Below are positions 2,839 to 27,880 of a stretch of DNA of 35,525 bases, one piece after another. Within the stretch, counting starts at the first letter, position 1, and every line of letters starts with the position of its first letter. The stretch comes from an uncultured Bdellovibrionales bacterium (GTDB taxonomy: Bacteria > Bdellovibrionota > Bdellovibrionia > Bdellovibrionales > UBA1609): NCBI GenBank assembly GCA_938001965.1, contig CALLBC010000163.1, positions 1 through 35,525 on the forward strand, read 5' to 3'. The position numbers and the translations under genes were made by a program. Below the pieces are notes generated by a model. The model was given only the letters and a program-made list of their open reading frames with translations, was not told where the DNA came from and ran no database searches.

Positions 2839-2986
2839 ATTGAACCTCGGTAGTTAAGAGTTAATGAGAGTTTTAACAACATCCCATTGATATGATCAGT
2901 TGGAATTTCAGATATATGTACTATTAAGTCAAGAATATTAGCCTGTTATGGGGTGAGCTATGTGGTGAAATCAACTGTCTTTGTTC

Positions 2987-3013
2987 TTGACCAACCCACT
3001 GAAATGCTACATT
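2987..3013 (+). promoter_or_regulatory. Candidate promoter directly upstream of the histone-like gene
   Basis: TTGACC (2987-2992) and TACATT (3008-3013) are separated by 15 bases. Transcription would begin only a few bases before the ATG at 3023, and no Shine-Dalgarno is visible there, so the mRNA could be leaderless or nearly so. The short spacer lowers confidence. Confidence 0.3.
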
Positions 3014-3022
3014 GTTGCTGAC

Positions 3023-3745
3023 ATGGCTAAAAAGAAGAAAAAATCGAAAAAAAAGACAGTTGAAAAAGCAGCTAAAAAGCCTGCTAAGAAAAAAACAGTT
3101 AAAAAGAAGGCTAAGAAAAAAGTAGCTAAAAAAAAGGCTGTTAAAAAGAAAGCTAAGAAAAAAGTAGTCAAAAAGAAGGTTGCTAAAAAGAAAGCTAAGA
3201 AAAAAAGTATTTCTAAGTCTGTTGTTGCAAAATTAAAAAAAGCTACAGCAAAAATCACTGGTAAAAAAGAAGAGAAGGCTAAAGCCAAAAAGATTAAAGT
3301 TGAAGTTAAAGAGGTTGAACCTATAGAAGAGGTTGATCCTGATGACTTAGGTTTTGAAGAAGAAATTATTTTAACCGATGCTGAAGGGCGCCGTTATTGC
3401 AAAGTGCCTAACTGTGATCAGGTCGGCTTAGTTGAAGGCTACTGTCGATATCATTACTTATTTCACTGGAAACGTATTCAAATACGTAAGAAAATCATAT
3501 CAGAAGGGAAGCTAGACAAGTATATCGAAGAGTTAACAGCAAAATTCCCGTTAAAGTTTATTGATGTATTACGTAAAGACCTTAAGTCTGAAAAAGACTT
3601 TATGATGGCCATTCGTGAATTAGAAATTGATGAAAATATGACTGAAGACAACGCCGACACAGAAGCGGATGATCAGAACTTAATTAATGAGATGCGTGGA
3701 ACTACAGGAAATGAAGGGATGCGTAGTTCGGATGATGATTATTAA
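3023..3745 (+). CDS. Histone H1-like Lys/Ala-rich protein with C-terminal Cys/His (putative zinc) domain
   Basis: 240 aa from the ATG at 3023. A TTG 14 codons upstream would add an unlikely leader. Residues 2-90 are almost entirely Lys, Ala and Val in repeats of the KKKAKKKV type, like histone H1 and bacterial AlgP/Hc-type DNA-compacting tails. An acidic hinge follows (about 97-115), then a folded domain with C126-x4-C131-x9-C141-x2-H144, which looks like a small zinc-binding knuckle, and an amphipathic helical stretch. The C-terminus is acidic and ends DDDY. The basic tail suggests binding to DNA or RNA; the function of the C-terminal domain is unknown to me. No Shine-Dalgarno is visible. 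The gene ends at a terminator shared with the convergent regulator. Confidence 0.8.
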   Translation: MAKKKKKSKKKTVEKAAKKPAKKKTVKKKAKKKVAKKKAVKKKAKKKVVKKKVAKKKAKKKSISKSVVAKLKKATAKITGKKEEKAKAKKIKVEVKEVEPIEEVDPDDLGFEEEIILTDAEGRRYCKVPNCDQVGLVEGYCRYHYLFHWKRIQIRKKIISEGKLDKYIEELTAKFPLKFIDVLRKDLKSEKDFMMAIRELEIDENMTEDNADTEADDQNLINEMRGTTGNEGMRSSDDDY

Positions 3746-14641: not shown

Positions 14642-15802
14642 ATGTTTTTTATTTTTAAGTTATTACTATCGTTCACATTGTTTGCTGAGTCATACACAGA
14701 GATTAAAGATATAAAAGTATCTTCATCAGAAGTGGAGCAATACGATATCAGGAAAGACTTAAATCAAAAGGCCATTCAAAAAGCATCAAATCAAGAGATC
14801 ATGAAGATATTGGGACCTAAAATGTACAAAGCTTATAAAAACAAAATTATTAAAAATATAATACCACAATCTAATAAATACATATCATCTATAACGCCAT
14901 TAAAAATTAATGTGAAGGCTCCAAACTCGATTGGTACTTACTCTATTCGTATGTCCCAGGAAAGTTTGATGTCTTTATTGAGGCAAAACGGAATGTTTTA
15001 TTCGGTGAATACTAGAATGAAAGTTCTTCCCTTGGTTGTCTATAGGGATCAAGTGGATTCTAAAAATTATTTTTGGTGGGGAGGGAATAGCCCTTTTTCC
15101 TCTCGTAGAGGAAAGAGTATTATTAAAAGTTTTCATAGCGCTATGGCCGGAGAATTTAAAAAAGACAAATTTTCAGTGATAACACCAATTAAGAATATGA
15201 CATTCAAAAAAGTACCTGTCGGGCAACAGTTTTTAAAATTAAACTCTGCAGATGTTAAAGCCATAGCCAGGGCTACCGGAGCAAATGTGGTTATTTTCGG
15301 TGAGGTTACTGTGGGGAAGGGCATGATGAAAAATGAAACTTATACCGTGGATTATGATTTAAAAGCTGTACAGGTTGAAGGTATGAAAATCTTGTCCACT
15401 GTTAAAAAAAGTTATACATCTTTGCCAGGTAGTTTTAAAGCTTCAATGAGGCAATTGCTTAGACGTTCTAATAAGAGCATAGTCTCAAAGCTTGAGACTA
15501 ACCTGAAGGAGTTTTGGGGAAGTGGCCATATAGGAGAAAGAACGTATACAATTACACTTAAAGGTAACTTAAAGTACAAGCAGTATAAGTCATTTAAAAA
15601 AGATTTAATTACAAATATTGGTGCTGTAAATAGTATTAATGAAAAAAACTTTAGACCTGGGACTATAGTCTTGGAGTTAAGTTCTCCTTCCAGCCTTAAT
15701 ACTGTTGCTGAAAGGCTTAAAAAGTCTAAGTTTTCTAAATACAAAGTCAATGTAAGCCAAGACTCCAAATCTAGCCTGGAGTTAGATATACAATCTTGGT
15801 AA
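14642..15802 (+). CDS. Secreted protein with a TolB-N/FlgT-middle-like domain
   Basis: 386 aa, with a strong Shine-Dalgarno AAGGAGG just upstream. The N-terminus is a signal peptide (MFFIFKLLLSFTLFA, cleavage before ES). Residues about 120-270 carry the pattern VLPLVVYRD, a basic helix region and ATGANVVIFGEVTVGKG, then alternating strands. This pattern resembles the TolB N-terminal/FlgT middle/CsgG-type anticodon-like fold, often used in envelope assemblies. The last 100 residues (TITLKGNLKYKQYKSFKKDL and following) look like a separate alpha/beta domain. With the lipoprotein that follows it seems to form a two-part system in the periplasm. The flagellar H-ring link is by fold resemblance only; no flagellar genes are near. 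Confidence 0.65.
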   Translation: MFFIFKLLLSFTLFAESYTEIKDIKVSSSEVEQYDIRKDLNQKAIQKASNQEIMKILGPKMYKAYKNKIIKNIIPQSNKYISSITPLKINVKAPNSIGTYSIRMSQESLMSLLRQNGMFYSVNTRMKVLPLVVYRDQVDSKNYFWWGGNSPFSSRRGKSIIKSFHSAMAGEFKKDKFSVITPIKNMTFKKVPVGQQFLKLNSADVKAIARATGANVVIFGEVTVGKGMMKNETYTVDYDLKAVQVEGMKILSTVKKSYTSLPGSFKASMRQLLRRSNKSIVSKLETNLKEFWGSGHIGERTYTITLKGNLKYKQYKSFKKDLITNIGAVNSINEKNFRPGTIVLELSSPSSLNTVAERLKKSKFSKYKVNVSQDSKSSLELDIQSW

Positions 15803-15811
15803 AATGAACCC

Positions 15812-16738
15812 ATGAAAAATTTTATTTTATGTATATTAGTAGGTTTATTATCAACTTCATGTAGTTTAGTAAAGGTTGAGGCGCCTGAATATAGTTCACT
15901 GCCTGTTCGAGATGTTCCATTGACAGCTAGAAAAGGAAATACTTACCTTAAAAAACTACTTGTTTTACCAATTCTTTCTCCGCATATTGGCAGTGAGACC
16001 TTAGCTAAGATTGAAAATAATTTTATTGCTAAGCTTGGAGGCACAGGCTTTTACGATGTTATCATGCCCGCTGAGATTAACCTTAATCCATCCGCTTACA
16101 TAACAAATGAGAATAGATACAATATTGATAAGTTAACCACTGCAGTTAAAAATAGTAATGTTTCAGCCTTTGTAATAGTGATGGTCGAAGATATAAAGTA
16201 TTATAAAGTGGGTGATAAGTTAGGAGTCATAAGGACTATTCAAAATAAATTAGATGCTAAAACGCGAATTGCAATTGTATCTACGGGTACTAAAAGCGAT
16301 ATTTATAAAACATTAAAAGAGTCTTCAGTGGTAATGAGTGACCAACGTACATTCACTAAGCCACATACTGACACTAAGGCCTATGCAGATCCTTATATGG
16401 TTGAATTAGCAGTGACTAACGCTTTAAATGAGGTTGTTCCTGTTGCCCATGAGTCTTTGTCAAATTTAGCTTGGGAAGGAAGGGTTGCTCGTGTTGAGGG
16501 AGAGAAAGTCTTTTTAAATGTTGGCAGAAAGTCCGGTGTACAAATTGGCGATATATTAAAAGTTACTGGTAAAAGTGCTGATGTATTTGATCCACAAAAA
16601 GGGGAGTACATTGGTAAAAGTCCTGGTCGAGTGAAAGGAACTATTGAGGTGCAAAGTTACTTAGGTGAAAATGGTGCAATTGCCGTTATACACTCTGGAG
16701 CTGGTTTTCAAACTAATGATAAAATTGAAGTTTACTAA
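15812..16738 (+). CDS. Lipoprotein with a FlgT C-terminal-like domain
   Basis: 308 aa. The signal peptide ends in the lipobox STSC (C17), so it should be lipid-anchored. Residues about 45-190 repeat the TolB-N/CsgG-like theme (LLVLPILSPHIGSETLAKI; AFVIVMVEDIKYY). The C-terminal 75 residues, EGRVARVEGEKVFLNVGRKS then GVQIGDILKVTG, match the FlgT C-terminal pattern of a small beta barrel that reads 'lnvG..sGv..Gd...v'. It begins nine bases after the previous gene, so the two are an operon. The likely location is the periplasmic face of the outer membrane. I infer a structural or assembly role; an LpoB- or CsgG-type role is also possible. Confidence 0.65.
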   Translation: MKNFILCILVGLLSTSCSLVKVEAPEYSSLPVRDVPLTARKGNTYLKKLLVLPILSPHIGSETLAKIENNFIAKLGGTGFYDVIMPAEINLNPSAYITNENRYNIDKLTTAVKNSNVSAFVIVMVEDIKYYKVGDKLGVIRTIQNKLDAKTRIAIVSTGTKSDIYKTLKESSVVMSDQRTFTKPHTDTKAYADPYMVELAVTNALNEVVPVAHESLSNLAWEGRVARVEGEKVFLNVGRKSGVQIGDILKVTGKSADVFDPQKGEYIGKSPGRVKGTIEVQSYLGENGAIAVIHSGAGFQTNDKIEVY

Positions 16739-16865: not shown

Positions 16866-17003
16866 ATGTAAAGTCCACTCAAGTAGATTTTCTTTTTATA
16901 TCATTATAAGTCATCAATATTAAAGTTGAGTTTCAAGCCTTAAGGATCTAAAGCTTTGGTCTAGCTATTCCGATTAATACCAATAGAAAAATCTATGGTA
17001 CGT

Positions 17004-17009
17004 AAAGGA
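17004..17009 (+). promoter_or_regulatory. Shine-Dalgarno that chooses the giant-gene start
   Basis: AAAGGA ends six bases before the ATG at 17016. Two earlier in-frame ATGs (16995, 17010) lie before or against this site and would disturb the signal peptide, so 17016 is preferred. Confidence 0.7.
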
Positions 17010-17015
17010 ATGAAA

Positions 17016-20000
17016 ATGGTAACAAAAAATTTATTAAGCTTCATGGCTTGCTTCTCATTAATACTTTTCACAGTTTCATGTAAAGATGAGGGTGGAGATG
17101 GAGGAGCTGAAAGCTCTGCTAAAGGCTCTGTGAGTCAGTCTGTAAATACCTTTAATGCTGTGTTACCAGAGTCATTAGAGATAAGTCCTACTAGCATTTC
17201 AAACTTTGTAGTTAGTGATGGAGTTAGTCCAGGGAATTCATCAACCATTTTTGTAGTTAATAACTCTGAAGCTGAGTCGGGGTTGTTTTCTGAGCCTGTG
17301 TACTCTGGCCCGGGAGCCTCTGCATTCCAAACCATAAGTAATACTTGTAATACAAGTATCAGTCCCGGTGGTTTTTGTAGTTTTAGCGTGCAATTCGCAC
17401 CATCAACAAACGGCACCTTTAATGGTGTTGTTACTATAAATTCAGCCAATATGTCTTCAAATATGACAAGCCTATCTGGAGTTGCTAATGGGTTTGGTAC
17501 ATCACCATTATTAACTGGAGTTTGCCCAAGTTCTGTAAATCAGGATGTGGACTATAGCTGCCAATTGGAGTCGAATGACCCTGATGCGGGTGAAACTTAC
17601 ACTTGGTCATTTACAGCTAATAACACCTGTGAGTGGGCGGTTATTAACGACTCTACTGGAGAAATAACTGGATCAGCAAATGATGATCAAGTTGGCAGTT
17701 GTAACTTAGCAGTTAAAGTGAATGATGGCACAGAAGATTCTAATATTGTTGTTAGTCCAGTTGTGGTTTCCAATGTAAAGCCTACACTTGTTATTGCTGG
17801 AGTGAGTTTAGATGAAGATAGTGGTTTAACAGAAATTCATTCTGATAGCGATGTTCAGTCTAACGAAGAAGGTTTTGGTGTTTACAGTATAGAAGTGAGT
17901 GGAGGAGTAGACTGTTCAAGTCATGGACAAGCCAGTATTAATTCTCAAAATGGTTCTATTAACTTTACTCCAAACCCTAACTTTGCAGGACTTTGTAATA
18001 TAACTGTGAAATTTGATGATGGGAATTCAGTTAATAATATAGTAGATTCTCAATTTCAGGTGAGTGTAAACCCAATAAATGATTTGCCGGTAATATCACA
18101 ATCCTGTTCAATGCAGAGTTCTGAGGGACTGAGCTATAATTGTGAACCTACAGTGACGGACAGTGACTCAAATGCATTTACATGGAGTTTTTCTTCAGGG
18201 AACACATGTGATTGGCTTTCAATTAATTCAAACACAGGTGTTATGTCGGGAACGCCAAATGATGACCAGGTTGGTAATTGTACATTAACTTTTAAAGCAA
18301 ATGATGGTTTAGCGGACTCTAATGAGATTAATTTAAATATTAACGTTGAAAACATTGCTCCAACATTAAATATTGCTGATACCTCTATAGATGAAGATTC
18401 AGGGTTAACTGTTATAAGGTCTAATAGTGATGTGCAGTCAAATACAGAAAGATTTGGTGTGTACAGTATTGTGTCTGCAGCAACAAATGATTGTAGCGCC
18501 CATGGTTTGGTTAGTATTAACTCTAATAATGGTGAAGTGAGTTACAAGGTAAATCCAGGTTTTAACGGTTTTTGTAATATAAAAGTTCAATTTGATGATG
18601 AAAATACTGTGAATAATATTGTTAGTAGTGAGTTTATGTTAACAGTAAATCCAGTTAATGATGCGCCAGTTTTAAGTCAAAGCTGTTTAGCGATGGTTAA
18701 TCAGGGCGTAAACTATAACTGTGAGCCCACAGTGACTGATAGTGATTCTAACACTTTTACTTGGAGTTTTGCATCCACCAACACTTGTGATTGGTTGTCT
18801 ATAGATCAAGTGACAGGTGCAATTTCGGGAACTGCCAACGATGATCAGGTTGGAAATTGTAATTTAAGTTTTAAAGTGAGCGATGGTGAACTAAGCTCTA
18901 ATGTTGCATCTATAAGTTTGGAAGCAATTAACCTTGCTCCCACTTTAAGTTTATCAGACACTTCTATTAATGAAGATGCTGTTGGGCAAATAATTAAGTC
19001 TGATGGAGATGTACAGTCTGATACAGAAGGAATGGGAGTTTATAGTTTTATACAGGCATCAAATGATGACTGTAGTTCTGTGGGAACTAAAGAAATTGAT
19101 TCTGCTACGGGTGAAATTAGTTTTGAGGTAAATGCAGGATTTAATGGGTTATGTAAAATTAAAGTTCAATTTGATGATGAAAACAATGCTAATAATTTAG
19201 TGAGCAGCGAGTTTAGCTTAACAGTAAACCCAGTGAATGATGCGCCAGTTTTAAGCCAAAACTGTTTAGCAACAGTAGATCAAGATATGAATTACAATTG
19301 TGCACCATCAGCTAATGATGAGGATGGCGATTCTTTGTTTTGGAGCTTAACTGCTGAAAGTACTTGTGCATGGGCGAGTATTGATAACGGTACCGGGGTA
19401 ATATCTGGCACTCCTAATGACGACCAGGTTGGCAGTTGTCTTTTAGATTTTAATGTAAGTGATGGTAGTTTAGAAGTTTCATCAGGGCCTATTTCTATAG
19501 GCGTAGTTAATAAAAAGCCTGTTCTTGAAATATCAAGTGCCAATTTAGATGAAAACTCTGGCCTTCAAGTTATTAAGTCTGATTTAGATGTTCAATCAAA
19601 CGAAGAAGGCTTTGGAGTTTATAAAATTATTTCCGCTAGTAACGGTGATTGTAGTGCTAATGGAGATGTGCAAATTGATAGCTCTAATGGTGAGATTAGT
19701 TTTAACCCTAGTCTGAACTATAATGGATTATGTAAAGTAAATGTTGAGTTTGACGATCAAAACAGCATAAATAATATTGTTACAGCTGAGTTTGACGTTG
19801 TTGTGAACTCAGTAAATGACGCTCCTGTAATTTCGCAAAACTGTATTGTTGAGATTAATCAAGATTCATTATATAGTTGTGTTCCAAGTGTAACTGATTC
19901 AGATAACACCAGTTTTACTTGGGTCTTATCTAATAATACTAGCTGTGCTTGGTTAAGTATTGATAGTGCTTCAGGAGAGGTCTCAGGAACTCCTAATGAT

Positions 20001-23000
20001 GACCAAGTTGGTATTTGTACATTTGATATCATGGCTAATGATGGGATTGCAGACTCAAACTTATTAAGTGTTGAGTTAGCAGTGAACAATGTTATGCCAA
20101 CGCTTAGTTTATCAAATGTAAGTGTTCAAGAAGATGCCTCTTTGTCTGTGATACAAAGTGACTCTGCAGTAGGGGCCAGTGATGAAGGCTTTGGTAAATA
20201 TAGTCTTATTAACTCAGCCGCAGATGATTGTTCATTAAGTGGCAGTCTGACTATTGATGAAAACAATGGTGAACTTAGTTATAAGCCTGCCGAAAACTAT
20301 ACTGGAATTTGTAATGTTACTGTGCAGTTTAATGATGAAAACTTAGTGGATAACAAAGTCATTGAAGACTTTACGGTTTCTGTTATTAAAGTTAATGATA
20401 CTCCTTTGTTAGCTCAGTCCTGTACTACAGGAGCTGCGCAAGATGGCTTGTATGAGTGTGCTCCAACGGTCATTGATCCAGATTTAAATGACACTCATAC
20501 ATGGTCCTTTGCTGATAATAATAGCTGTAATTGGTTGACTATTAATTCCAGTACAGGAGTAATTACTGGCTCTCCTAATGATGATGAAGTTGGGGGTTGT
20601 AGTTTGCAGTTTTCTGTTAGTGATGGCGGAAGTAGTTCATCTATTGCCGTTGTTAATATTAGCATCGAAAACATAAAGCCAAGTTTAGAAATCAGTGATA
20701 TTGAGATTAATGAAGATTCAGGTTTTTCTGTTATTGCCAGTGACTCTCAAGTTCAATCTAGTGAAGAAGGTTTTGGTAAATATAGCCTGTTAACAGCAGC
20801 AAGCAATGATTGTAAATCTAAAGGCACTGCAAGCATTGATGAAAACTCAGGTGCTATTAGCTATTCACCAAATAGTAATTTTACTGGTGCTTGTAGCTTT
20901 AAAGTTCAATTTGATGATGAAAATAATGTAAATAATATTGTGAGTGCTAACTTTGAATTAATAGTGAAAGGTGTAAATGACTTAGCGACTATTACACATA
21001 GCTGTGGTACAAATATTAAGCAGGATGAAATTTATACTTGTGATCCCAAAGTTAATGATCCTGATAGCTCAGACACTCATATTTGGAGTTTTGCAGGAAC
21101 TAATACTTGCTCTTGGGCAAATATTGATTCAGCCACTGGTAAAATATCTGGCCAGCCAAATGATGATCAAGTAGGAAGTTGTAATTTAGGTTTTAAAGTT
21201 AATGATGGTACTGCTGACTCTCAGCTGTCCATAATTAATGTAGTTATTGAAAATAAATCACCGACCTTAAATATTACTAGTACTGAAATTGATGAAGATT
21301 CAGCTCTTGCAGTTGTGCGCTCAAATTCAGATGTTCAGTCTAGTGAAGAGGGTTTTGGTATTTATTCTTTAGAAAATGCAGGAAGTGCAGACTGCTCTAA
21401 TAAGGGATCATTAAGTATTGATTCTAGCAGTGGAGCTATAAGTTATGCACCTAATCACAACTACAATGGAAGTTGTAAAGTAAAAGTAAAGTTTGATGAT
21501 CAAAATGCAGTGAACAATACTGTAGTCGCTGAATTTTTTATAGATGTGAATGTGGTTAATGACATTCCTGTGCTTAGTGAGAACTGCCCAATTAGTATTA
21601 ATCAAGATCAAAATTATAGCTGTGCTCCAGTTGTGACTGATCCAGACCTTAGTGATAGCCATACCTGGGCTCTAACCAGCGCAAACACTTGTGGTCATTT
21701 AAGCATTAATGGCAACACTGGAGTGATTAGTGGGACTGCTGATGATAATCAGGTTGGAAGTTGTAAGCTTGGTTTTGTGGTTAACGACGGTAAAGCAAGT
21801 TCTTTGCCAAAGTTGATAAATGTTACTGTAAATAATGTTAAACCTACTCTTAATATCAGTGATGCTAGTCTTTCTGAAGACTCTCCATTAACGATCATTA
21901 AGTCTGACTCTGATGTACAAGCCAGTGAAGAAGGCTTTGGAGTTTACAGTTTAGTCCTTGCTGCTGGTACTGATTGTTCAACAAAAGGCCAAGTAGCAAT
22001 TAAGCCTGGTAATGGTGAAATTAGCTATAAGCCTTCTGCAAATTTTGTTGGTTCTTGTAATATTAATGTTTTATTTAACGATGAAAATAGCATTAACAAC
22101 TTTGCAATGAGTCAGTTCAGCGTAGAAGTAAATGACAATAACTCTGCTCCAGTAATAAGCATTGCTTGCTCTAAATCTGTAAAGCAGGATGAGTTGTTTA
22201 GATGCCAACCATCTGTTCAAGATAATAACCCTGAAGATAGTCATATTTGGAGCCTTGCCTCTGGTAATGCATGTAGCTGGGTTAGTATTAATGAACAAAC
22301 TGGATTAGTAACTGGAACGCCTAAAGATTCTGATGTTGGAAGCTGCAAGTTAAGCCTATCGGCTAATGATGGGAGAGTTGACTCTTTAGCTAAGGACTTA
22401 ATTGTAAACGTAATTAATAAAAAACCGATTCTAGTTTTGGCTGATGTGACAATTGATGAAGACTCTGGGCTTAAAGTTATAAAGACTGACAGTGAAGTTC
22501 AGGCCAATGAAGAGGGTGATGGGATATATAGCATTGTAACAGCTAGTACAGCAGACTGTAGTGGCAAGGGTTTAGCTATTATTAATGAAGATAATGGTGA
22601 ATTATCATTTAGGTCTGAAACAGATACTAATGGTACTTGTAATATGGCTATTTCATTTAATGATGGCAACCTTGAAAATAATATTGTTATTAGTCAGTTT
22701 GCTGTTAATATAAAAAATGTAAATGATGCTCCTCTTATATTTGCCACTTGTAAAACGAAAGTTATGCAAGATGAACCTTATGAATGTAAGCCTTCAATTT
22801 TAGATTTAGATAATAATGACAAGCATGGCTGGGCATTTTCAAAAAACAATACTTGTGATTGGTTAACAATCAGTAGCAGTACGGGAGTAATGACTGGTTT
22901 GCCGAATGATAATCAAGTTGGAAATTGTAAGCTAGAGTTCCAGACCTATGACTTAGCTTTATACTCTGAAGTGATTAGTTTTGATATTATTGTTGAGAAT

Positions 23001-26000
23001 ACTTCTCCAACACTAGAAATAGCAAGTGTTGCAGTAGACTTTGGTGAGAACCTAATATTAGAAGATAGTAAAGTGCAAGCGAGTGAAGAGGGTTTTGGCA
23101 AATACTCTTTTGATATTGCAAGTAGTGCTGATTGTCAGGCTAAAGGTATAGCAAGCATTAATGAAGATAACGGAAGTATTCTATTTAAGCCAGAAACAGG
23201 ATTTAGTGGAGAATGTAAGCTAAATGTGATTTTTGATGATCAAAATAGCACTGATAATATTGCTCGTTCTGAGTTTTCTGTATTAATTGGTGAAGATCCA
23301 ACTATTCCAGTTAATACCGCTCCATTCTTTACTTTAGTTCCAACAAGAGACCATGGTTATGGCGGAGGGGAAGTTATTTCAGATATCTCTGCCCAAGAGG
23401 GTAAGGTAGCCAGTGAAGACAACCAAGTTGTAAGTGTAAAAGTGGTTTCATCAAGTAATTTAGCAGTGTTGCCTTTAGAGAATATTAATGTTGTTTGTGA
23501 AGACTTAGGAGATGGTTGTAATGGCTCTGTGAGTGCTAAATCTATAAAGGCGGGTAGTTCAACAATTATACTTGAGGTTTCTGATGGTTCTTTAGTAGGT
23601 CAAGCTTCCTATGAAGTACATTTTGGACAAATCCTTGTTGAAAATATTTACCCAGTTAAAAACTGGAATGAATATGTTAAAAAGACAGGTGTTAACAAGT
23701 TAGATATTGCTGAAGTAGTTCCTTGTGATAATTCAGTAGACAAAAAGTATGCTGACGGCTGTATTCATGCCGGTGAATCAAGAAAAGTTGAGTTATCAGC
23801 GGAAACAAGTTGCTTTGGTTTAACCTTAAAGGATGAATTAGATGTTTGGGAATGGGTTTGTGATGATTCAGGCAGCAATGTGGTCTTTTACACAAGTGGT
23901 CTGCTAGAAGATAAGGGTTTATCTGATATTATAGAAAATAACAAATTTAAATCTAATTCTGTTACGTTATCAAGAGGTTGTGAAGTGTTGGCGAAGTCTG
24001 GTCCAAAAATATGGGATTGGACTAATCCAATTAAGAGACTTCCTAGCAGTAAAAGTGGAGTGGTTCGATTAGCTGAGAAAGGTTCAATCTTTGTTTCAGA
24101 ATCTGATATGACCGGTTATGGTTACAGTATTGAAGCGAATGAAGTTGCTCTTGTTATTGATAAGAGTGACAAGTTTACCTTTGACTCCAGATCTAGAAAT
24201 ACATGTAATCGTAGGACTGGCTCAAGAGGGCGTGCTGATATCACATCTGCCGTTTCTGTTTCAGGCAAAAAGCATCTTTGGATTGAGGGACAATTTAAAT
24301 CTGTTAAATCACGTCGTGTAACAAATATGCTTAATTTGGTAAATATGAGTTATTCGAGGGTGCAAAATGTTGATACAGAGCATACGAAAGATGGAGCCTA
24401 TTATTTAAAAGACTCTCACTCAAACTTTATGCAAAATATAAGATCTAATGCTTGTTATAAGCATGCTGTGCATTTGGATAATTCTAAATATAACTTTATT
24501 TATAATTTAAAAACATCTGAGTGTGGACGTGGTTTAATAGTTGAGAATAATTCAAATAATAATCTATTTATGAAAGGTGTATTAGCCAGTAATGATATAA
24601 TTAGGGGAGACTTCACTCAAGGTCGTGGAATTTTCTTTAAAAATAATTCTGATAATAATAGCTTAGTAAAAATGGCTGTATTGAGTTCTGATAGACATAG
24701 TATTATGTTTGAAAACTCAAATGATCAGAATACATTATCTCATATTACTGTAGCCAATGCTTTGTCAGGTGGTATTACAATTGATTCTAACTCCAATGAA
24801 AATAGTATTTCAAGTGTAGTGGCTATGAATACTGGTAAAGGAATTCATATGACTAACTCGTCTAAGAGGAGTCATTCACAAAATAATAAATTTAATGATA
24901 TTTACTCAGTAGGTAATGGCCGTGATGATGTATCTTTGGAGAAAGTTGCTGGAAACACTTTTCATGGGAATTTATACACAAGCACAAATAGATGTAATAT
25001 TAAAGGTGTCAGTTCAAATGCGGCTGGAATGAATAGCTCTTGCAAAAAAGACGGGCTATCTACTCATGCACATTTTGGTGGGAAAAGTTCTGATATATTT
25101 AAACTATGGTTAGAAGAGTCAAATAAAGAGCCTGTAAATATGGGTAGAGGTTTAGCTTCTGTTGGAGGACATAGTCATCATGGGCATAAAGGTCATGGCA
25201 AAGGTCACTATAGCCATGGTAATGGTCTTGGTAAAGGCCATTATAAGCATAGTCATGGAGATAGTAAGTGTTCTAAATACGGCCATATGAAGCATAAAAA
25301 GTATAGTCATAAAAAGAAGCATAAAAAAGTGGCTTGTGTCCCTAGGCCTAAACATGATCATAAAGATATGTGTGAACACAAAATTAAACATGATCATGGT
25401 AAACATAATGGCCATCATAAAAAAGCAAAAGCTTATGGCTACGGTAAAAAAGTGAAGACCTGTCATGGACATGGGCACGGAAAAGGTAACAAGCATAAAA
25501 ACAAACATCATAAACATAAAAAGAAAGTAGTTTATTGTGATGAAGTTGAAGAAATAGAGGAAGAAGAGGTGTTAATGTGCCTATCTCCAAGAGAAGAGCG
25601 CAGAATTGCTTCTTTGTCAGGGGCATTTAACACAGGGGTAAAGAAATTTACTTCAATCACAGATTGGCATAAGTTTGAAGACTTTTTTGCTGGTTGGCAG
25701 TTTGATGGCGGCAAAGGTCAGCCAGGAGTGAAGCATAGGAGCTCTTGTGACTCTAGTTGGCATAACTGTGTGGCAACATCACTAAAACCTAAAGCTTCAT
25801 TTCAAAACCTAAATGGCGAAGCAGTTATTGGCGAAGCTTGCCCTGCATCTGTTGATCAAAGTAAAAATTATGATGTAGTGATGACTGATAAAATGGAAAC
25901 TCCTTATCATAAAGGAATTGTGGCTGTTGAAAAAATAGGTAACGGGAACGGAATTTGTGAAGTAGGAGAGGTTTGTAATAACCAATATATCGTCAATGCT

Positions 26001-26174
26001 GTTGAAATTATGTTTGATGGCCTTGGTGATGATGATGGGTTGTGTGAAAGTAATGAGAGATGTACTTACGCAAGCACTTTAGGTGCTCATCAAGAGTTTG
26101 GAAGTTATGACAATAAGACTTGTGCTTTTACGGATGGTCGAGTTAAAAATGTTAAAATGTATGTTTATAAATAA
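17016..26174 (+). CDS. Giant lipoprotein-like surface protein: ten Cys-paired Ig-like repeat units, beta-helix, His-rich insert
   Basis: 3052 aa. A signal peptide ends at FTVSC (C22), an atypical lipobox followed by an acidic/Gly linker. Residues about 45-160 form an ASH/choice-of-anchor-like Ig domain. Residues about 161-2091 are ten tandem units of 193-194 aa. Each joins module A (putative-Ig/cadherin-like, with W, 'ISGTPNDDQVG' and DG motifs) to module B ('EDSGL..I.SDSDVQS.EEG.G.YS', 'FDD.N..NN', 'VNDAP'). Each unit has six cysteines: four in A, two in B. A short domain, a parallel beta-helix with N-rich rungs (about 2368-2658), a 125-residue His/Lys/Gly-rich segment (2717-2841) and a Cys-rich C-terminus with GNGICEVGEVC and GDDDGLCESNERC follow. 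It is probably an exported adhesin or sheath protein; its ligand is unknown. Confidence 0.9.
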   Translation: MVTKNLLSFMACFSLILFTVSCKDEGGDGGAESSAKGSVSQSVNTFNAVLPESLEISPTSISNFVVSDGVSPGNSSTIFVVNNSEAESGLFSEPVYSGPGASAFQTISNTCNTSISPGGFCSFSVQFAPSTNGTFNGVVTINSANMSSNMTSLSGVANGFGTSPLLTGVCPSSVNQDVDYSCQLESNDPDAGETYTWSFTANNTCEWAVINDSTGEITGSANDDQVGSCNLAVKVNDGTEDSNIVVSPVVVSNVKPTLVIAGVSLDEDSGLTEIHSDSDVQSNEEGFGVYSIEVSGGVDCSSHGQASINSQNGSINFTPNPNFAGLCNITVKFDDGNSVNNIVDSQFQVSVNPINDLPVISQSCSMQSSEGLSYNCEPTVTDSDSNAFTWSFSSGNTCDWLSINSNTGVMSGTPNDDQVGNCTLTFKANDGLADSNEINLNINVENIAPTLNIADTSIDEDSGLTVIRSNSDVQSNTERFGVYSIVSAATNDCSAHGLVSINSNNGEVSYKVNPGFNGFCNIKVQFDDENTVNNIVSSEFMLTVNPVNDAPVLSQSCLAMVNQGVNYNCEPTVTDSDSNTFTWSFASTNTCDWLSIDQVTGAISGTANDDQVGNCNLSFKVSDGELSSNVASISLEAINLAPTLSLSDTSINEDAVGQIIKSDGDVQSDTEGMGVYSFIQASNDDCSSVGTKEIDSATGEISFEVNAGFNGLCKIKVQFDDENNANNLVSSEFSLTVNPVNDAPVLSQNCLATVDQDMNYNCAPSANDEDGDSLFWSLTAESTCAWASIDNGTGVISGTPNDDQVGSCLLDFNVSDGSLEVSSGPISIGVVNKKPVLEISSANLDENSGLQVIKSDLDVQSNEEGFGVYKIISASNGDCSANGDVQIDSSNGEISFNPSLNYNGLCKVNVEFDDQNSINNIVTAEFDVVVNSVNDAPVISQNCIVEINQDSLYSCVPSVTDSDNTSFTWVLSNNTSCAWLSIDSASGEVSGTPNDDQVGICTFDIMANDGIADSNLLSVELAVNNVMPTLSLSNVSVQEDASLSVIQSDSAVGASDEGFGKYSLINSAADDCSLSGSLTIDENNGELSYKPAENYTGICNVTVQFNDENLVDNKVIEDFTVSVIKVNDTPLLAQSCTTGAAQDGLYECAPTVIDPDLNDTHTWSFADNNSCNWLTINSSTGVITGSPNDDEVGGCSLQFSVSDGGSSSSIAVVNISIENIKPSLEISDIEINEDSGFSVIASDSQVQSSEEGFGKYSLLTAASNDCKSKGTASIDENSGAISYSPNSNFTGACSFKVQFDDENNVNNIVSANFELIVKGVNDLATITHSCGTNIKQDEIYTCDPKVNDPDSSDTHIWSFAGTNTCSWANIDSATGKISGQPNDDQVGSCNLGFKVNDGTADSQLSIINVVIENKSPTLNITSTEIDEDSALAVVRSNSDVQSSEEGFGIYSLENAGSADCSNKGSLSIDSSSGAISYAPNHNYNGSCKVKVKFDDQNAVNNTVVAEFFIDVNVVNDIPVLSENCPISINQDQNYSCAPVVTDPDLSDSHTWALTSANTCGHLSINGNTGVISGTADDNQVGSCKLGFVVNDGKASSLPKLINVTVNNVKPTLNISDASLSEDSPLTIIKSDSDVQASEEGFGVYSLVLAAGTDCSTKGQVAIKPGNGEISYKPSANFVGSCNINVLFNDENSINNFAMSQFSVEVNDNNSAPVISIACSKSVKQDELFRCQPSVQDNNPEDSHIWSLASGNACSWVSINEQTGLVTGTPKDSDVGSCKLSLSANDGRVDSLAKDLIVNVINKKPILVLADVTIDEDSGLKVIKTDSEVQANEEGDGIYSIVTASTADCSGKGLAIINEDNGELSFRSETDTNGTCNMAISFNDGNLENNIVISQFAVNIKNVNDAPLIFATCKTKVMQDEPYECKPSILDLDNNDKHGWAFSKNNTCDWLTISSSTGVMTGLPNDNQVGNCKLEFQTYDLALYSEVISFDIIVENTSPTLEIASVAVDFGENLILEDSKVQASEEGFGKYSFDIASSADCQAKGIASINEDNGSILFKPETGFSGECKLNVIFDDQNSTDNIARSEFSVLIGEDPTIPVNTAPFFTLVPTRDHGYGGGEVISDISAQEGKVASEDNQVVSVKVVSSSNLAVLPLENINVVCEDLGDGCNGSVSAKSIKAGSSTIILEVSDGSLVGQASYEVHFGQILVENIYPVKNWNEYVKKTGVNKLDIAEVVPCDNSVDKKYADGCIHAGESRKVELSAETSCFGLTLKDELDVWEWVCDDSGSNVVFYTSGLLEDKGLSDIIENNKFKSNSVTLSRGCEVLAKSGPKIWDWTNPIKRLPSSKSGVVRLAEKGSIFVSESDMTGYGYSIEANEVALVIDKSDKFTFDSRSRNTCNRRTGSRGRADITSAVSVSGKKHLWIEGQFKSVKSRRVTNMLNLVNMSYSRVQNVDTEHTKDGAYYLKDSHSNFMQNIRSNACYKHAVHLDNSKYNFIYNLKTSECGRGLIVENNSNNNLFMKGVLASNDIIRGDFTQGRGIFFKNNSDNNSLVKMAVLSSDRHSIMFENSNDQNTLSHITVANALSGGITIDSNSNENSISSVVAMNTGKGIHMTNSSKRSHSQNNKFNDIYSVGNGRDDVSLEKVAGNTFHGNLYTSTNRCNIKGVSSNAAGMNSSCKKDGLSTHAHFGGKSSDIFKLWLEESNKEPVNMGRGLASVGGHSHHGHKGHGKGHYSHGNGLGKGHYKHSHGDSKCSKYGHMKHKKYSHKKKHKKVACVPRPKHDHKDMCEHKIKHDHGKHNGHHKKAKAYGYGKKVKTCHGHGHGKGNKHKNKHHKHKKKVVYCDEVEEIEEEEVLMCLSPREERRIASLSGAFNTGVKKFTSITDWHKFEDFFAGWQFDGGKGQPGVKHRSSCDSSWHNCVATSLKPKASFQNLNGEAVIGEACPASVDQSKNYDVVMTDKMETPYHKGIVAVEKIGNGNGICEVGEVCNNQYIVNAVEIMFDGLGDDDGLCESNERCTYASTLGAHQEFGSYDNKTCAFTDGRVKNVKMYVYK
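17500..23290 (+). repeat. Ten tandem 579-583-bp coding repeats
   Basis: Unit starts, taken at the conserved 'S-x-C' strand of module A, are near 17500, 18083, 18664, 19242, 19821, 20400, 20982, 21564, 22146 and 22729. Units differ at many positions but keep length, motifs and six cysteines. Short identical DNA stretches remain, for example AAAGTTCAATTTGATGATG at about 18583, 19163 and 20898. Confidence 0.9.
25164..25538 (+). other. His/Lys/Gly-rich low-complexity domain of the giant protein
   Basis: 125 codons with 29 histidines and 5 cysteines, in runs such as GGHSHHGHKGHGKGHYSHG and HKNKHHKHKKK. It sits between the beta-helix and the C-terminal domain. The composition suggests binding of transition metals or polyanions and clearly departs from the Ser/Asn/Asp-rich remainder of the protein. 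Confidence 0.85.
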
Positions 26175-26209: not shown

Positions 26210-26480
26210 TTGCACCACCACTGTTACTATCCACAGGAGTGACTATAACTACTCCTTCATTGTGAATTGCGGATATATGACTAATTTCGTCAGCTGCGCT
26301 GGCAGCTAATCCTCTGTGTTCTTCGCAATTTTCAAAATAGCTAAGATTTTTATCGGCTATTGCAGAGCGAAATTCAAAGTTATAGTTTGCTTTCTTGTAA
26401 TCGAGTTGTAAAGAAGAAGTATCAGAGAGTCCAAGAATTGGAAAGATAAAAATAGTTGTAAAAAAAATATATCGTATCAT
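26205..26480 (-). CDS. Small secreted protein, last gene of the RHS operon
   Basis: 91 aa. The N-terminus MIRYIFFTTIFIFPILGLS is a signal peptide (cleavage near DTSS). The mature part of about 70 residues is polar with one cysteine (C52) and ends in a Ser/Gly/Asn tail. It matches no family that I recognise. Its ATG overlaps the stop of the RHS-like gene in an ATGA, and AGGAA precedes it, so translation is coupled. The position after a YD-repeat gene invites comparison with immunity or effector peptides, but nothing in its sequence shows this; a co-secreted partner is equally possible. Confidence 0.7.
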   Translation of the reverse strand: MIRYIFFTTIFIFPILGLSDTSSLQLDYKKANYNFEFRSAIADKNLSYFENCEEHRGLAASAADEISHISAIHNEGVVIVTPVDSNSGGAN

Positions 26481-27880
26481 AAGATTTCCTGAAATACATC
26501 ACTATCAGTGTACAGTTCACCTAAGCCTGTATAAAAACTATTAATATAATTTGTAATAGTGATGTCACTGTTTTTGTCGTTGATAGTATTGATTTTGTGT
26601 AAGTAAACTTTTTTCCCTTTTTTTAAGGTTACAGTTTTAAGCTTTTTATTAGAGTCATAATTGTATCTCAAGAGTCCAGAAGGGCTTTTTATGCCAGAGA
26701 GTAGGTTGTTCTTATAGTTTATTTGATAGCTATTGTGATTTAGACTTGTGATGCGCCTTAGTTTGTTTTTTTGGCCATATTGGAGCACTAGGGAGCTGTT
26801 TTTGCTGTTTGGGTGAATATAAGAAATCTTTGAGATTCTATTGTTTTTGTCATACTGAAAGTTTGCTTTATATTGCTTACTACTATTTTTGACAGTCATT
26901 GTTGATAGGGTGTCTTGATGGTTATAGGCATAGGTTTTTGTTAGGCCATCTTTTTTTACTTTTACAATCTTTCGATTTTTTGGAGAAACAGCAAATAAAT
27001 TTTTATTATATGAGTCTGTGACTTGTAGTATTTCAAATAGATCATTGTACTTCACCAACATTTTATTTTTATGAGTAAAGCCATCTTTACAAGATTTATC
27101 AATAAAAATACTCAAAGAGAGTCCCTTGTTTTTCTGATAAGTATAATTTTCAATACAAAAATCATTTTGTGAAATTTTATAAACAGCTTTATTTTTATTG
27201 TAATAAATGGCTAGGAACTCTCCTTTGTGGTCTATGATCTTGCTAAGTAGAGAGTCTTTATTGTAGTTATAGGAGGTGAACTTTGATTGACTATTTTTTG
27301 AAAGCACAAGGTGTTTGCCTCTATAGCTATACTTTAAAATATTTTTTTTATTATTAAAAATACTGGAAACCAATTTATTTCGTTTAAAGAGTTTAAGTTT
27401 GGTTTTCCCAATTAACAAAGAGATAGATTTTTTTTGCTTTGAAATAAGTACGGTTTGTTGAGAGCTGTAAGGTTTTAGTCCCTTAAGTGCTCCATGCTTG
27501 TTAAAATAAAAGACATCGCCCTTAAGGTTTGTGTAAGTTTTTGAGTTATTTTTACTTATGGCTAAATGGTGCCCTTGAATATACGAAGACTTTTTATTAT
27601 TTTTTATAAAATAAATTTTCTTCATATTGCACTGGTAAATTGTATGATGAGTTTTATTAGTTATAATTTTGTATTCTAAATTTGAACACCAGCCCTTACC
27701 AAATAGCCCTACATTGCTTTCTTGGCTGTTGTAACTTCTCCAAAGTTTAAATTTTACATTCTTTTTATTAATTTCTAAGTCAGTGATGTCTTGATGAAAT
27801 TGACCAGTGGCTAAATTAACGCCAGCTAAACAATAGCTGCAAGAAAGTATCGAGACTATAAGTATTAGTGCTTTAATCAT
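26477..27880 (-). CDS. Secreted short RHS/YD-repeat protein
   Basis: 467 aa with a signal peptide (MIKALILIVSILSCSYCLA, cleavage before GV). Directly after it, GVNLATGQFHQDITDLEI, then LWRSYNS and GLFGKGWCSNLEY, match the domain (DUF6531-like) that starts many RHS/YD proteins. Degenerate YD-type repeats follow: YNYNKDSLLSKIIDHKG, FQYDKNNRISKISYI, LQYGQKNKLRRITSL and YNYDSNKKLKTVTL. It is far shorter than RHS toxin cages, lacks the RHS-core/DPxG junction and ends without a recognisable toxin domain. It is unusually rich in Lys and Asn. It sits between two other secreted proteins, with ATGA overlaps on both sides. The role may be carbohydrate or surface binding. Confidence 0.75.
   Translation of the reverse strand: MIKALILIVSILSCSYCLAGVNLATGQFHQDITDLEINKKNVKFKLWRSYNSQESNVGLFGKGWCSNLEYKIITNKTHHTIYQCNMKKIYFIKNNKKSSYIQGHHLAISKNNSKTYTNLKGDVFYFNKHGALKGLKPYSSQQTVLISKQKKSISLLIGKTKLKLFKRNKLVSSIFNNKKNILKYSYRGKHLVLSKNSQSKFTSYNYNKDSLLSKIIDHKGEFLAIYYNKNKAVYKISQNDFCIENYTYQKNKGLSLSIFIDKSCKDGFTHKNKMLVKYNDLFEILQVTDSYNKNLFAVSPKNRKIVKVKKDGLTKTYAYNHQDTLSTMTVKNSSKQYKANFQYDKNNRISKISYIHPNSKNSSLVLQYGQKNKLRRITSLNHNSYQINYKNNLLSGIKSPSGLLRYNYDSNKKLKTVTLKKGKKVYLHKINTINDKNSDITITNYINSFYTGLGELYTDSDVFQEIL

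Follow-up and report, generated by a model that had tools for sequence, protein, structure and literature searches.

Paired cysteines in the cadherin-like repeats of a giant lipoprotein-like protein from an uncultured Bdellovibrionales bacterium and of its relatives in Bdellovibrionota

Background

Rods of cadherin-like or Ig-like domains in Gram-negative bacteria are usually explained by calcium. Among described systems, the extenders of RTX adhesins (AhLap 6xi1, MpIBP and SiiE; PMC7493085) are long tandem beta-sandwich rods that raise a distal domain from a Gram-negative cell and depend on calcium in their linkers; the words cysteine and disulfide are absent from the text of that paper. The giant adhesin of Mobiluncus mulieris (PMC10619420) is a tandem Ig-like rod with intradomain covalent cross-links, which include a disulfide but are mainly ester and isopeptide bonds. 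The MAT fibres of Bdellovibrio (PMC10769870) are surface fibres of a predator with diverse tips, and the main text of that work makes no mention of cadherin, Ig-like or cysteine. Tandem cadherin folds are also found in eukaryotic ectodomains such as CELSR1 (EC1-4, EC4-7) and the protocadherins.

Here we describe a giant ORF from an uncultured Bdellovibrionales bacterium, found in the window, that is, the whole stretch of 35,525 nucleotides analysed (contig CALLBC010000163.1). Its product resembles the RTX extenders in its predicted rod, but it carries an N-terminal lipobox, and Pfam scans detected no RTX family, either over its full length (E<=1) or in its C-terminal 953 aa (E<=0.01), so that it is not classed as an RTX adhesin. 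Its modules belong to other Ig families than those of the M. mulieris protein, which is no Gram-negative lipoprotein. The MAT fibres differ from it in being trimeric and phage-fibre-like; the S74 family was absent from Pfam scans of the giant protein, but some MATs have no S74 either. With the cadherin ectodomains it shares four modules in the same order and, by eye, DxD, DRE-like and NDAP-like motifs at corresponding places; unlike them it has a predicted bacterial lipid anchor and one or two Cys pairs per domain, and identity is 11-20%.

Results and Discussion

Organization of the giant ORF

The ORF occupies positions 16995..26174 of the forward strand, on which all of its features described below lie, and encodes 3059 aa; translation probably starts at an internal ATG, 17010 or 17016. 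The signal peptide (17016..17081) ends in a lipobox, TVS-C29, detected by the pattern for bacterial lipoproteins. This match suggests a lipid anchor and lipoprotein-like export of the product, the latter already claimed in the first-pass annotation. Next come an Ig module of the choice-of-anchor-D/ASH-like type with two Cys (17172..17459; weak profile matches), ten repeat units, a head region (23556..25139), a His/Lys-rich stretch of 155 aa with 29 His, 33 Lys and 6 Cys (25140..25604) and a conserved C-terminal domain with a Cys-containing tail (25605..26171), the tail being common to many beta-helix-like proteins of the phylum. The whole protein has 90 Cys, of which the signal peptide and lipobox account for two; in every other segment the number is even.

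Just upstream, positions 14642-16738 encode two apparently exported proteins, the second with a match to the FlgT C-terminal family below the curated cut-off, while positions 26477-27880 hold a reverse-strand ORF with a DUF6531 (Rhs-related) match. The loci of relatives that were fetched contained nothing matching these neighbour genes, and therefore no operon link is claimed. A 254-aa ORF at 2981-3745 contains Lys-rich tandem repeats (3047-3205), is possibly histone H1-like and has no Pfam match. No RNA families or tRNA were found in the window.

The ten-unit cysteine array

The units follow one another head to tail from 17505 to about 23312, each 579-582 bp (193-194 aa) long: unit 1 (17505..18086), unit 2 (18087..18665), unit 3 (18666..19244), unit 4 (19245..19823), unit 5 (19824..20402), unit 6 (20403..20984), unit 7 (20985..21566), unit 8 (21567..22148), unit 9 (22149..22730) and unit 10 (22731..23312), which forms the most divergent end. 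By Pfam and NCBIfam profiles every unit consists of a four-Cys He_PIG module and, after it, a tandem-95 cadherin-like module with two Cys, in agreement with the split proposed earlier. He_PIG (PF05345) reached 247.7 bits over ten stretches against a gathering cut-off of 24, and the tandem-95 repeat protein family (NF012211) 303.5 bits for the whole protein against a curated cut-off of 90. The first-pass count of six invariant Cys per unit was reproduced exactly: the six columns are filled in all ten units (60/60), there is no extra Cys, and all six are among the 32 invariant columns of the 191 ungapped ones (chance 1.5e-5).

Identity between units averages 47% for amino acids (range 39-62%) and 56% for nucleotides (range 50-68%), and Tandem Repeats Finder, run on the window, did not detect the array; for these reasons we consider the array old, with no fresh duplication. 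That the six Cys are conserved merely through common descent of repeats duplicated recently, and serve no function, is scarcely credible. Duplication and conversion can keep the repeats of one gene alike, and the window units cluster together in the tree, though with weak support; yet the units differ at half of their residues and at 44% of their nucleotides on average with zero Cys lost, and the Cys pattern holds across families of the phylum, so that the relatives contradict this explanation.

At E<=0.001 the unit model found matches in 28 of 141 genomes from the order and in 79 of 369 from the phylum; the weaker ones among them are other cadherin-like repeats. Named loci among the relatives come from Bacteriovorax, Halobacteriovorax and Bdellovibrionaceae, and no match was obtained in two nearly complete genomes from the genus to which the window belongs. 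Among 52 full-length distinct units of relatives, all six Cys are kept in 44, and in six more the number is still six but the fifth Cys is displaced; of the last two, one is without both C1 and C2, and the other has four Cys, all outside the six places. Random loss of single Cys in homologues had been named as a finding that would refute the first reading; losses were instead largely paired, and the reading was not refuted. Module arrangement varies in the phylum: one locus (L048, 8769-10523) has five tandem He_PIG-type modules with four Cys each and no intervening tandem-95 modules, and the fetched part of an 8543-aa ORF in another (L050, genome G046) comprises 47 cadherin-like domains with two Cys in each.

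Predicted fold and disulfide pairing

Units 2 and 3 were modelled together with AlphaFold2 from a 19-row alignment (pLDDT 92, pTM 0.60). Foldseek matched the model to four consecutive cadherin domains of CELSR1 (8d40, E 6.5e-18). VIA-align likewise matched four cadherin domains in a row, with Z 14.4 to 7sz8, where the rmsd of 10.0 over 361 residues is large because domain orientation differs, and Z 10.7 with the Aeromonas RTX extender 6xi1. The predicted consecutive beta-sandwiches are those of a cadherin-fold tandem array and bear out the cadherin-like modules of the first reading. At the sequence level, PDB chains gave no match to the full-length protein at E<=1.

The six Cys of a unit appear to form three disulfides, two in the He_PIG module (C1-C2 and C3-C4) and one in the tandem-95 module (C5-C6). 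In the strand list of the model, the first partner of either pair (C41, C136) precedes strand D by four residues, and the second (C65, C163) occupies the third position of strand F; these matching places suggest that C3-C4 and C5-C6 would be the same bond in two modules, which leaves C1-C2 as an extra bond of He_PIG. The C1-C2 pairing we infer from co-occurrence and elimination. Cys columns 7 and 19 are both filled in 81 domains, while 8 domains have just one of the two (phi 0.94); for columns 42 and 66 the corresponding figures are 119 and 15 (phi 0.91). Besides, three DsbA matches in the genome exceed the cut-off: one is close to a DsbB gene, and another shares a 420-aa frame with a VKOR domain, as a VKOR-DsbA fusion. 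Paired loss in relatives, matching strand places and Dsb genes all favour the three disulfides per unit predicted at first.

Two other uses of the Cys were considered. As ligands of a metal (Zn or Cu), the four Cys of a He_PIG module could form one site, and metal binding would also accord with the His-rich stretch and with the head, whose NosD match is to a family with a copper-binding annotation. However, the two lone Cys of each tandem-95 module would make a poor site, pair places vary by lineage with no other conserved ligand, the His-rich stretch is absent from relatives and periplasmic oxidases are encoded in the genome, all of which renders metal binding by the Cys improbable. Bonds between neighbouring chains or domains, giving a cross-linked bundle or layer, are if anything a little less probable still: Cys are very numerous and packing between domains is uncertain in the model, but the even count already applies at the level of a single domain, He_PIG and tandem-95 stretches that consist of one domain retain their own pairs, and the members of a pair co-occur inside one domain.

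Intradomain disulfides, the reading that we prefer, do not support the very stiff covalent rod that the first-pass annotation had envisaged. With the predicted bonds inside domains the linkers would stay free, so the disulfides alone would not stiffen the rod, and domain orientation is uncertain in the two-unit model (pTM 0.60). Stiffness would then have to come from the linkers, possibly with calcium. The rod is acidic (275 D/E vs 72 K/R), which suggests calcium, and conserved acidic and Asn positions stand at plausible calcium places in the units; putative sites may lie at the inter-domain linkers. A cadherin domain is about 4-4.5 nm long, so the rod of about 20 cadherin-fold domains would perhaps measure 80-90 nm if straight.

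Paired cysteines across Bdellovibrionota

Non-overlapping domains were counted, since iterated models cross-hit the A and B modules. In 62 Bdellovibrionota proteins, 499 cadherin-like domains had no Cys in 51 cases, two in 356, three in 3 and four in 89; thus 445 of 499 have two or four, and only 3 have an odd number, against about 49% odd counts under a Poisson distribution with the same mean, although the domains are mutually related and their counts therefore not independent. Two of the odd domains are real (L039, 649-735, and L088, 434-535), and the third is a boundary effect. Most proteins show the trait either throughout or not at all: Cys occur in every domain of 55 proteins, in none of 5, and 2 are mixed. 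Five same-phylum cadherin-like repeat proteins (L092, L094, L095, L104 and L105) are Cys-free or nearly so.

Because the first search model contained Cys, a second set of loci was fetched with a Cys-neutral tandem-95 family model and scored with Cys-masked models. Its Bdellovibrionota domains had two Cys in 137 cases, none in 30 and an odd number in 0; some proteins are common to both sets, which are thus not fully independent. Controls, all plasmid loci found by protein search in Pseudomonadota, Bacillota and Cyanobacteriota, share the He_PIG and tandem-95 families, but showed 0 Cys in 130 domains of 12 loci, and with Cys-masked models 125 of 126 domains were Cys-free. In these plasmids, then, Cys are as scarce in ordinary bacterial cadherin-like repeats as the first-pass annotation had supposed. 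By contrast, the combination seen in the giant protein, which had been judged unusual, is not peculiar to it, one or two Cys pairs per cadherin-like domain being common in the phylum.

Judged from sequence counts, the paired-Cys trait is phylum-wide in Bdellovibrionota; even counts and paired keeping or loss are what disulfide-stapled repeats would show, with the two real exceptions given above. Pair positions differ between lineages, and some of the lineage-specific ones would fit both sides of the D-E hairpin. We lean towards the broader view that cadherin-like surface rods of Bdellovibrionota have one or two disulfides in nearly every domain, at lineage-specific positions, as a Gram-negative, Dsb-dependent counterpart of the isopeptide-stapled adhesins of Gram-positive bacteria. 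No description of the trait in Bdellovibrionota was found in the open-licence literature.

Head, tail and proposed role

The head has a Pfam NosD match (E 2e-7; right-handed beta-helix type, at about 24318-24809) and a weaker Beta_helix match, which suggest that it is beta-helix-like; AlphaFold2 from the single sequence gave pLDDT 35. A 1266-aa relative (L047) combines a head and tail of similar type with three units, which shows that the length of the rod varies; it lacks the His/Lys-rich stretch, for which metal binding is possible. The C-terminal parts of other relatives differ. Head and tail (23556-26171) are part of a wider Bdellovibrionota family with matches in 48 of 369 genomes. Its members, such as those at L171-L179, include many lipoprotein-like proteins with varied N-terminal parts and a beta-helix-like region, and their conserved C-terminal tail reads GDDDGLCESNE.C...GAYQGHG.

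We propose, with a probability of about 75%, that the protein is a lipid-anchored surface rod with intradomain disulfides that presents a beta-helix-like binding head. After export, DsbA-type oxidases would form one or two intradomain disulfides per domain in the periplasm, about 30 in the rod of ten He_PIG and tandem-95 pairs. These bonds may protect single domains against unfolding and proteolysis, while calcium in the linkers may supply rigidity. The rod would keep the head and the conserved tail away from the membrane, and the head would most likely bind prey, surfaces or polysaccharide. It probably points outward; RTX adhesins and giant Ig-like adhesins carry their heads in this way by other chemistries (PMC7493085, PMC10619420). 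We infer the bonds and their pairing, the calcium, and the surface location, length and adhesive role of the rod; what the analysis shows is the array, its invariant and largely pairwise conserved Cys, a predicted fold, Dsb genes in the genome and the profile match of the head.

A role of the disulfide-stapled rod within the envelope, as a periplasmic scaffold or spacer rather than a surface adhesin, would agree with an N-terminal lipobox as the only such feature seen, with no known surface-export signal identified in the protein, and with the periplasmic location of NosD-type proteins. We hold it to be unlikely, since a rod of about 80 nm would be too long to span the periplasm, proteins of comparable architecture in other bacteria act as surface adhesins (PMC7493085, PMC10619420) and heads vary between relatives, as expected of binding tips.

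Conclusions

If the phylum-wide rule of paired Cys is true, a group to which well-known predators belong uses the Dsb pathway for covalent stabilisation of its surface rods. Oxidative folding and surface recognition would then be linked in a way that can be tested, and the even Cys count per domain would be a simple sequence mark for finding and annotating such rods.
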